DNA of 40,599 nt from a virus, in IMG/VR virus record IMGVR_UViG_3300031227_000138, positions 1-40,599 of that record; one strand, 5' to 3'. Shown piece by piece: positions 35,222 through 40,599 of the stretch. The notes below the pieces were generated by a model. It worked only from the letters and a program-made list of their open reading frames with translations, was not told the DNA's origin and made no database searches. How positions within the stretch are numbered: position 1 is the stretch's first letter; each line of letters begins with the position of its first letter. Both the position numbers and the translations under genes were made by a program.

Positions 35222-35570
35222 TTTTTTTAAACTCCACATTTCTAGACTTTCTTAACTTTCCCATTTTAATCTTGCGCTTCCACTGACTATACTTGTCCGC
35301 TTCTTCAAAAAGATTATCAAAACTTTCTCTGCCATAAATAATCCTTCCTAACTTATGCCTTGCTCTCAAATATCTATTAACCCATTCATGCCAAGTCAAG
35401 TCATTTAAAAAATCATCAACTCTTGACAATAATCGCCAGCGAAAAACATTTTGCTTATAATAGCCAAATTTATGACACTTCGGACACCACAACACCCACT
35501 CATCACCAGCGTGGTGATAATATTCAAGATTGTGTCCTTTATCACATTTTTTTCGTGATGGTATTATCAT
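35214..35570 (-). CDS. zinc-ribbon-containing protein (118 aa)
   Basis: CDKGHNLEYYHHAGDEWVLW then CPKCHKFGYYKQNVFRW shows C9 and H12/C30-xx-C33 as zinc ligands. The remainder is helical and basic (WVNRYLRARHKLGRIIYGRE). It overlaps the transketolase and methyltransferase genes by 4 and 8 nt. Not recognised as an enzyme; perhaps a binding partner. Confidence 0.6.
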   Translation of the reverse strand: MIIPSRKKCDKGHNLEYYHHAGDEWVLWCPKCHKFGYYKQNVFRWRLLSRVDDFLNDLTWHEWVNRYLRARHKLGRIIYGRESFDNLFEEADKYSQWKRKIKMGKLRKSRNVEFKKNA

Positions 35571-36052
35571 TTTACTCCATATCTTGAGAGAGAAATAAAC
35601 ACAGGCCCGTCTTTTAATGAATCCTTAACTGCGTGTTTTACTTCTTTCTCACTTGTCGGCCAGTATTCCTTAATATTGTCAAAAGTTCCAATTAGTTTGG
35701 CCGACTTGTAAGCAAAGTGAGTGAAGCCGTCTTCTTTGTATTCTCCTCTCCTGCCAGCACCTACTAATTTTACATTAGCTTTGTCAAAGTCTACATCTAT
35801 TTTTATAAACTCATAAGCCCGATCAATCAAGAATGGCGTGATCGAATAAACAAACGGTATCAGCCCTTGACTAGCCATCCCACAAGCCACACCGATCATG
35901 TTCGCCTCTGCAACACCACAATTAACAAATCTGTCAGGAAAGTCGTCCTTTATTTTATCTAGCACACCAAATCCAAGATCGCCAGTAAGCAACCACACCT
36001 TGTCATTCTTCTGCATTTCTTCGTGTAATAATTTAACGAATAGTTTTCTCAT
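35567..36052 (-). CDS. transketolase-like, pyrimidine-binding subunit (161 aa)
   Basis: MRKLFVKLLHEEMQKNDKVW, and NCGVAEANMIGVACGMASQG with E49, the glutamate that activates thiamine diphosphate, then YSITPFLIDRAYEFIKIDVD. This is the Pyr domain of transketolase/DXS as a separate gene. The C-terminal third domain is absent. With the gene at 36033-36707 it should form one active enzyme. ATG at 36052 preferred. Such split transketolases occur in nucleotide-sugar clusters. Confidence 0.82.
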   Translation of the reverse strand: MRKLFVKLLHEEMQKNDKVWLLTGDLGFGVLDKIKDDFPDRFVNCGVAEANMIGVACGMASQGLIPFVYSITPFLIDRAYEFIKIDVDFDKANVKLVGAGRRGEYKEDGFTHFAYKSAKLIGTFDNIKEYWPTSEKEVKHAVKDSLKDGPVFISLSRYGVK

Positions 36053-36707
36053 ACATCTTTTTATCAATCTTAATATAATGGCTTTTTAAAGTATCCTCTA
36101 TCTCTGGGATTCCTTTGCCTTTGGTTGTTTTAGCAAATACAAGAGAATTGTTTTTTATTGCTGATGACAAACTTTTAAAAGAATGACCATTAGCCACCCA
36201 ACTATTTTTAAAAAGCGGCAAGCTGTATTCTGCCTTTTTATATGCCTGCCAACCATTGCAATCCACAATCGCTGTTAAATTTCTTAACTTTCTTTTTTCT
36301 GCAAACTTAATTGCTTCCATTGTCGATCCTTCATCCATATCTCCATCACTTAGCAAAACAAATGTTCTAGTGCCAGCTAAGGCACAACCAGCACCTAGAC
36401 TAAGCCCATGCCCTAGACTCCCTGTTGTAAAATGAATACCAATGTCGGGATTCTTGTAAGGATGACCGCCTAACTTGTCTAAATCAATGTCTTTTAGTAT
36501 TCCTTTCTCCATAAGCGTGGAGTATAAAGCAATGCTTTTATGTCCAGGGGATAGAATAAAGACATCTTCTGGCTTCATTATTTCAAAAAACAATACTGTC
36601 AGAATTTCAACACATGAAAGTGAGCTCCCCACATGAGTATAACCAGTTTCGTAGTGAGTTTTAATTATTCTATTTCTTATGTTTTCGGCTCTTTTTTTTA
36701 AGTTCAT
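36033..36707 (-). CDS. transketolase-like, diphosphate-binding subunit (224 aa)
   Basis: THVGSSLSCVEILTVLFFEI, LSPGHKSIALYSTL, TTGSLGHGLSLGAGCALAGT and the ThDP/Mg motif SDGDMDEGSTMEAIKFAEKR with a downstream DCNG (N151). This is the PP domain of a two-gene transketolase. It transfers a two-carbon unit between sugars. It overlaps the Pyr-domain gene by 20 nt, so 1:1 synthesis is likely. Probably supplies a rare sugar with the neighbouring epimerase. Confidence 0.85.
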   Translation of the reverse strand: MNLKKRAENIRNRIIKTHYETGYTHVGSSLSCVEILTVLFFEIMKPEDVFILSPGHKSIALYSTLMEKGILKDIDLDKLGGHPYKNPDIGIHFTTGSLGHGLSLGAGCALAGTRTFVLLSDGDMDEGSTMEAIKFAEKRKLRNLTAIVDCNGWQAYKKAEYSLPLFKNSWVANGHSFKSLSSAIKNNSLVFAKTTKGKGIPEIEDTLKSHYIKIDKKMYEKTIR

Positions 36708-39269: not shown

Positions 39270-39292
39270 TCTCTAACTGATAGGGTTAGTTA
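39270..39292 (-). repeat. intercistronic linker repeat B, copy 1
   Basis: TAACTAACCCTATCAGTTAG on the minus strand, beginning with the TAA stop of the gene at 39290-39463 and leading into GAGGAG. It contains a CTAAC/GTTAG inverted repeat. Second copy at 39472-39492. Confidence 0.7.
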
Positions 39293-39463
39293 TACTTTTA
39301 CTTCCCGACAACTAAACTTTCCATAATCATCATCATATTTAATATCTTCTTTTTCAATTAACTTAAGCACTTCATCATATGTTGGCTCTTTTTCAAACCT
39401 TACATGGAAAATATACATATCTTCTAATTCTCTTTTAACTGATACACAATATAATTTTTTCAT
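39290..39463 (-). CDS. small hypothetical protein (57 aa)
   Basis: MKKLYCVSVKRELEDMYIFH, then VRFEKEPTYDEVLKLIEKED and a final beta strand. A small alpha/beta fold. Linker repeat B and AAAGGAG precede it. Not recognised. Confidence 0.65.
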   Translation of the reverse strand: MKKLYCVSVKRELEDMYIFHVRFEKEPTYDEVLKLIEKEDIKYDDDYGKFSCREVKV

Positions 39464-39471
39464 CTTCTCCT

Positions 39472-39492
39472 TTCTAACTGATAGGTTAGTTA
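39472..39492 (-). repeat. intercistronic linker repeat B, copy 2
   Basis: TAACTAACCTATCAGTTAGA on the minus strand, again beginning exactly with the TAA stop of the upstream gene and ending at AAAGGAG. One base shorter in the C run than copy 1. Confidence 0.7.
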
Positions 39493-39765
39493 TTTTTTCC
39501 TTTCTAAATAATTGTCTATTTCATTGTTTTGTTGTCTGATTGCCTTATTGAAACCATAAGTAATAAAACGAACTTCGTCATTTGCATCTAGTTTAATATC
39601 TAACATTCTCATCCTCAATTCCTCTCCCATTTCCTTCTCTTTGTCTTGAAGGGCTTTAACTACTTTCTTTGCTAATGGTCTAATTGGTGGGTATGGTTCG
39701 TAATTCCATTCCCTAATAATATCTACCCATTTTTCAATCTCTTTCAACTCTTTTTTAGTTTTCAT
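39490..39765 (-). CDS. helical hypothetical protein (91 aa)
   Basis: MKTKKELKEIEKWVDIIREW, NYEPYPPIRPLAKKVVKALQ, then more charged helix ending NYLERKK. All-alpha. The start overlaps the end of the lysozyme-like gene by 4 nt. No domain recognised. Confidence 0.6.
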   Translation of the reverse strand: MKTKKELKEIEKWVDIIREWNYEPYPPIRPLAKKVVKALQDKEKEMGEELRMRMLDIKLDANDEVRFITYGFNKAIRQQNNEIDNYLERKK

Positions 39766-40220
39766 AATTTATTATAAAAATAATTAATCATATTTAACCA
39801 ATGTTCTTGCCTCACAGGACAATAGACTTCGGCAAGTGCTGAGAGATCACTTTTATCTTCTCTCCACGCTTCATAGTACGATAGGGTTTCAAGTTTATAC
39901 CCAATCGTCCTAATAGCGTCTTCAAAACTCTCAAAGGCAATTTTGCCACTGCCCCAGCCAAAACAATTAAAAGTAGAGGGAATAAAGCGATCGCAAAGCC
40001 CAGACTCACCAAAAGCAATACCAGGCAAGAGCCTAAAATCGAAACCATATTCGTCAGCGACTTCAACAAAGACTTGCTCTTGACCCTCAAGTAGAGTTCC
40101 TTTAAGTGCCAGCGCCAGTTGTTCTGATCTTGTGTCTTGTTCAAAAACTGCAACCTCTTGTATTGGGCTTCTGTAACTAGCATGATTTCCTCCTAAAAGT
40201 AAAAGTATTATTAATATCAT
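39762..40220 (-). CDS. secreted lysozyme/transglycosylase-like protein (152 aa)
   Basis: MILIILLLLGGNHAS is a short hydrophobic start that could be an export signal or anchor. YGFDFRLLPGIAFGESGLCD with E72, then NCFGWGSGKIAFESFEDAIR, is the lysozyme-like/SLT pattern: catalytic Glu followed by a Gly/Asn-rich substrate loop. Four Cys could pair outside the cell. Being far from the holin and CHAP genes, it may act early, in entry or exclusion of other phages. No Shine-Dalgarno; its leader is the structured region upstream. Confidence 0.7.
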   Translation of the reverse strand: MILIILLLLGGNHASYRSPIQEVAVFEQDTRSEQLALALKGTLLEGQEQVFVEVADEYGFDFRLLPGIAFGESGLCDRFIPSTFNCFGWGSGKIAFESFEDAIRTIGYKLETLSYYEAWREDKSDLSALAEVYCPVRQEHWLNMINYFYNKL

Positions 40221-40506
40221 ATTGGCAGGCTTAGGCTAGAGTCTGGGAGTGCCCTCAACCCTAGCCCTTTGGGTTATAACCCTAGTGCTGGAGTAAACTC
40301 GTGGGAAGGTAAGCTTTCGCTTACACCGCTTCTACTCCAGCTCAAGATTTATAACCCCTGAAAATGCCTCTCGCTGTTGTTTAAAGAACAGAGTTAATTG
40401 TGTTCTTGTTGTTTAAGCCAGAGACATCTTCAAGAATTATAATGTGGGAGCAGTTACTAAACACTAGCCCCTGCCCCCGCCTTTCTTGCGACATTTTTTT
40501 AAAGTT
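40221..40506 (-). ncRNA. large structured non-coding RNA candidate, about 285 nt
   Basis: Nested perfect helices in plus coordinates: 40349-40357 with 40271-40279 enclose 40333-40341 with 40287-40295, which enclose 40319-40324 with 40309-40314, capped on the minus strand by a GAAA (GNRA) tetraloop. A second domain has 40417-40425 with 40366-40374 (includes a U-G pair only in minus RNA) around 40401-40407 with 40384-40390. A third is 40261-40266 with 40234-40239. GNRA and U-G both favour the minus strand. It is GC-richer than its flanks and ends at the lysozyme-like start codon. Class unknown. Confidence 0.65.
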
Positions 40507-40599
40507 CTACCACTTCATTTTAATAATTGACTCTATTGACTGAACCAAAACATGACAATCATTTGGCAATTCTTGTAAATCAGAAGCCTCTTTACTATT
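40507..40599 (-). CDS. C-terminus of an unidentified protein (partial)
   Basis: Thirty codons open to the right edge, ending KEASDLQELPNDCHVLVQSI then ESIIKMKW and TAG. Too short to identify. Its stop adjoins the structured RNA candidate, which may be its 3' region rather than a separate transcript. Confidence 0.5.
   Translation of the reverse strand, partial: NSKEASDLQELPNDCHVLVQSIESIIKMKW

Follow-up and report, generated by a model that had tools for sequence, protein, structure and literature searches.

A row of RNA hairpins with exchangeable slots, a candidate leader of phage lysis genes

The window, the whole 40,599-nt stretch of viral DNA analysed here (IMGVR_UViG_3300031227_000138), carries its main genes all on the minus strand. 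At its right end, in minus-strand order, the 3' end of a small conserved gene called 'ups' (40507–40599, cut by the end of the window) is followed by a 285-nt gap (40506–40221) and then by two overlapping ORFs; past these come small ORFs and an HNH gene, with the terminase and structural genes farther along. The first of the overlapping ORFs, of 152 residues (39762–40220, minus strand), is lysozyme- or endolysin-like, with a PHROG endolysin match at E 1.4e-4 only and no match in Pfam. Its ATG at 40220 is without a Shine-Dalgarno sequence, as an earlier note on this DNA had observed, though the second, membrane-type ORF of 123 residues in the +1 frame (39812–40183, minus strand) starts 37 nt past that ATG behind a perfect AGGAGG (40189–40194). 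We infer that this second ORF is holin-like. The gap itself is free of genes: no minus-strand ORF of at least 40 residues spans 40221–40506, and the single plus-strand ORF that crosses the interval has 47 residues and a GTG start.

As minus-strand RNA the gap is highly structured. Its minimum free energy is -123.7 kcal/mol against a dinucleotide-shuffle mean of -76.7 ± 4.9 (z -9.56; 0 of 100 shuffles as low), and the plus strand gives z -3.97; these z-scores, like the E-values quoted elsewhere, bear on structure and not on function. The best folds contain 14 G-U pairs on the minus strand and 3 on the plus strand, a count that favours whichever strand is folded; the strand argument is carried by the z-scores and by the comparison of one hairpin, P2, with its counterpart in a related phage. 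The picture drawn in the earlier note, of a gene-free gap filled with strong helices in minus-strand RNA, one of them capped by GAAA, is thus confirmed.

Five hairpins, P2 to P6, follow one another along the minus strand. P2 (40446–40478) is formed by GGGGGCAG and CUGCUCCC. P3 (40349–40442), which reaches z -9.18 when folded alone, consists of a 23-bp helix with five G-U pairs, a 1x1 mismatch, 3 bp, a symmetric internal loop and a 7-bp apical stem, and among the minus-strand helices in the window (at least 12 bp, span up to 140) this run of 23 pairs without interruption scores highest. The differences between its arms are all transitions, giving U-G or G-U in minus-strand RNA where plus-strand RNA would have A-C. 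The same 8-nt string, UAAACAAC, stands on both sides of the internal loop; it sits inside a 10-nt direct repeat, UUAAACAACA. P4 (40287–40341; z -3.75) bears the GAAA tetraloop (GUAAGC-GAAA-GCUUAC), P5 (40271–40282) is a small predicted hairpin, GGGUUAUAACCC, and P6 (40233–40267) is a further predicted hairpin next to the lysozyme start.

The minimum free energy fold, and that fold only, encloses these hairpins by two closing helices, P1 and P1b, with the 5' strand at 40479–40495 and the 3' strand at 40213–40230 (minus strand). The 3' strand includes the UG of the lysozyme AUG, and the start-codon U and G have predicted pairing probabilities of 0.79 and 0.97 in the window and about 0.7 in the related phage. 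P1 and P1b are identical in the two phages and so provide no covariation, and their status is uncertain.

The sole relative found is IMGVR_UViG_3300031227_004701 (L002/L007, hereafter L002). It keeps the upstream gene, with 30 of 30 'ups' residues identical (L002:97-411), the frame of the RNA and the start of the lysis genes, including a homologous start and overlap of the membrane-type ORF. Identity across the 162 nt that cover the end of 'ups' and P2 is 95.7%. Within P2 six positions differ; five of these lie in the stem, where each change preserves or creates a pair in minus-strand RNA. From window to L002, an A-U pair has become G-C through a double change, a G-U pair has become G-C, a G-C pair has become G-U, and U-A stands where the window has a G-A mismatch; all nine pairs form in L002. 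When changes were placed at random, about 0.02% of trials had at least five stem changes that were equally compatible with pairing (P about 2e-4). Alignment with a relative had been put forward in the earlier note as a check on conserved pairing, and in P2 the pairing has indeed been kept through change. Two copies of the RNA are known, and the covariation rests on this one hairpin; P3 is identical in both (94 of 94 positions). A background divergence of roughly 5% would predict about four or five changes in P3, and the identity is a mild sign of extra conservation.

P4 and P6 behave differently from P2 and P3. They show no sequence homology between the two phages, yet the corresponding slots are strongly folded in both. 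In place of P6, L002 has an unrelated hairpin of 11 pairs (z -5.7); at the position of P5 it has GGGUUAUAAUCCC. In place of P4 it has a cloverleaf resembling a class II tRNA (L002:951-1034; z -4.7), which is the unconstrained minimum fold and comprises a 7-bp acceptor stem, a 3-bp D-arm, an anticodon arm, a variable arm and a T-arm. By inspection U8, A14, G19, A21 and A58 are present, and U33, G18, U55, C56 and CCA are absent. The slot thus resembles tRNA-Leu, a class II tRNA, in its cloverleaf and long variable arm and departs from it in lacking those five features; the window itself has no cloverleaf. Neither ARAGORN nor Rfam made a call on the L002 domain, and ARAGORN and RF00005 found no tRNA or tmRNA in the window or in L002. 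Judged from its sequence, the domain is probably tRNA-like without being a decoding tRNA. Its similarity to E. coli tRNA-Leu reaches a z of only 3.2, with some shuffles scoring higher, so that descent from tRNA-Leu is suggestive, the cloverleaf itself being the stronger evidence. It is possible that RNase P or RNase Z would recognize the fold. A part in processing or end protection would fit a tRNA-like fold in this slot without being proved by it; no phage tRNA-like leader came up in a search of the literature. The exchange of hairpins in L002 suggests that folds matter here and not letters alone.

A further difference bears on the overall architecture. In L002, P2 and P3 are separated by an inserted 123-codon ORF, a paralogue of which lies 1.7 kb downstream. 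Because an ORF can separate these hairpins, and because P1 and P1b are weak and identical in both copies, the model of one compact multibranch RNA with P1 as its closing helix was not adopted. Of the nested helices described in the earlier note, the hairpins stand and the nesting through P1 and P1b is not established. What the comparison supports is a leader built of successive hairpins, with slots that keep a fold while their sequence is exchanged.

Outside this region the two phages are far apart: their terminases are about 21% identical, in part, and a comparison of their portals gave no match. The RNA and its flanks thus have the look of a cassette that was exchanged not long ago. Downstream, residues 10–28 of the lysozyme-like ORF are about 95% identical in L002, where a DPBB (RlpA-like) lytic transglycosylase domain (E 4.6e-10) has taken the place of the enzyme domain. 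The lysis ORFs overlap in different frames in both phages (39762–40220 and 39812–40183 in the window; L002:1074-1514 and L002:1135-1443), and the overlap has been kept despite the swap.

Searches were made for known families and for further carriers of the RNA. The Rfam scan proposed in the earlier note was run on the window with Rfam 15; it gave no match at the gathering cut-off, the best sub-threshold hit having E 0.3, and relaxed thresholds brought up mir-515, NEAT1 and the xanthine riboswitch, all at chance level. In the last case, the NMT1 xanthine riboswitch model (RF03054; PMC7373994, PMC8266621) gave P4 a score of 18.1 bits where 36 are required; P4 shares with that family the string GAGUAGAAGCGG at a stem base. 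P4 was not assigned to this family because the middle 28 model positions, which include part of the conserved core, are unaligned, and the xanthine pocket requires conserved J1 and J2 positions (PMC8266621); moreover, P4 is absent from L002. Exact DNA probes in viral and genome contigs, protein probes for the flanking genes, and BLAST against phages and plasmids found no carrier beyond L002. Terminase relatives were examined for DNA similarity and, in a regression scan, for folding energy; the folding peak at L021:1751, when read, contained nothing comparable. Among ten whole records compared with the RNA, only that of L002 itself gave a clear match. The RNA is new as a sequence family and ordinary in its broad kind.

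What lies directly 5' of the lysozyme-like gene is a non-coding, conserved RNA structure specific to one strand. The earlier note had offered a phage non-coding RNA or a riboregulatory leader; folding, and pairing in two phages, uphold the structured minus-strand RNA, and a leader fits better than a free-standing RNA, because a promoter and terminator of its own were not convincingly found and because it adjoins a lysis gene. We consider the chances about even that 40221–40506 acts in cis as a modular structured leader of a phage lysis or late operon. Such a leader would be untranslated and would lie, transcribed leftwards as minus-strand RNA, at the front of the lysis and late gene run. It would be a row of hairpins rather than an aptamer for a single ligand, with P2 and P3 as the constant part and with P4 and P6 as slots in which any stable fold may serve. 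Its most likely role would be to control the processing, stability and translation of the lysis and late mRNA. Counted against this reading are the small number of known copies, two, the ORF that parts P2 from P3 in L002 and argues against one compact RNA, and the pairing of the start codon in P1, which consists of weak, invariant pairs.

P3 may be central to such a mechanism. Its 23 uninterrupted pairs make a duplex of about two turns, and RNase III acts on duplexes of about this length (at least 20 bp); P3 is thus a plausible substrate, judged by its predicted helix. On this view RNase III, or an enzyme like it, would cut or bind the duplex; the folds downstream of it would shield the 5' end so formed, and they would also hold the lysozyme start, which has no Shine-Dalgarno sequence, in a weakly translated state. 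What the sequences show is the strand, the structure, the P2 pairing preserved through change and the exchange of slots; transcription as a leader, cutting by RNase III and an effect on expression are what we infer. Phage mRNAs are known to contain hairpins cut by RNase III, as at the early and late sites of T7 and at lambda sib. P3 is likewise a long intergenic hairpin in the sense RNA, of about two turns with an internal loop, but here five hairpins stand in a row with swappable slots. The large phage-associated GOLLD and ROOL RNAs (structures in PMC12286853) are also structured non-coding RNAs in phage DNA, a likeness to which the tRNA-like element in one of the two copies here (L002) may be added. 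The present RNA differs in being much shorter, in having no Rfam match and in showing no sign of oligomer formation.

Alternatively, the region could be a free-standing small RNA of some 290 nt, transcribed separately or processed from a late transcript and acting in trans. The fold is very strong for its length and the module is conserved between otherwise different phages, as such an RNA might be. No intrinsic terminator (GC stem and U run) and no convincing promoter were found in 40221–40506, however, as would be expected if the element were a leader inside a more extended transcript; it also adjoins the next start codon and is interrupted by an ORF in L002, and we regard a free-standing RNA as unlikely. 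Less probable still is a put-like or EAR-like element for processive antitermination or transcript elongation, which would act on RNA polymerase where the late genes begin. Its position ahead of a long same-strand gene run and the constancy of P2 and P3 would agree with that proposal, and the HK022 put and EAR RNAs are likewise structured RNAs ahead of long gene runs; here, in contrast, no Rfam family is matched at cut-off and the slots are not conserved in sequence, so that only P2 and P3 could be the recognized part. A function at the level of DNA, as a palindromic replication origin, a recombination or packaging site or a hot spot for exchange of lysis modules, is a little more doubtful again. 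This region lies at the centre of the DNA common to both phages, and the downstream enzyme domain has been swapped, but the G-U pairs lie mainly in the minus-strand fold and the differences in P2 and P3 are pairing-neutral only in minus-strand RNA. That the region is a functionless graveyard of tRNA remnants and repeats, as the missing decoding features of the L002 domain and the silence of ARAGORN might hint, is very improbable given strong folds in each slot of both phages and compensated changes in P2. Least probable of all is that the array serves as an internal translation-initiation element, in which structure would place the ribosome on the lysozyme AUG and time lysis and a tRNA-like module could stand in for a hairpin module.

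If the proposed leader does control the lysis genes, RNA modules, among them a tRNA-like fold, have been exchanged between phages while the folds of the slots were kept. Nature would then have provided an experiment in which the effects of structure and sequence in phage mRNA leaders can be told apart, and the RNA would mark a family of uncultured phages outside the coverage of Rfam.

The place next to 'ups' that is occupied by structured RNA in the window is taken in unrelated phages by arrays of G-rich hexamers (L009:951-1118, L030:4320-4478, L031:4336-4624, L032:4333-4510, L034:4330-4605, L036:4338-4580 and L037:3860-3990), with partial arrays at the contig ends of L002 and L035. Each can be taken as a short reading frame with the pattern M-x(8-20)-(Ser-[Arg/Trp/Gly])n. 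The serine codons vary by phage (TCG, TCT, AGT), but almost without exception W, R or G occupies the second position of the pair, which suggests selection on the protein. In L009 the array joins AT-rich phage sequence to a GC-rich, non-coding-looking segment (L009:1110-1860) ahead of an HNH-AP2 ORF; this segment has no match in Rfam and is perhaps an intron-like or HNH-associated RNA, or the mark of a chimeric contig.

Two other features of the window may be mentioned. Near 39270–39295 and 39470–39495 the minus strand repeats a short leader, AACTAACC(C/T)TATCAGTTAGA(A/G)AGGAG plus ATG, which forms a small hairpin immediately 5' of the Shine-Dalgarno sequence and is common to both phages (the L002 copy lies at about 2585). 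At 35567–36707, as read from the sequence, two adjoining ORFs resemble the two halves of a transketolase-type enzyme and lie beside a nucleotide-sugar epimerase-like ORF, in a phage.
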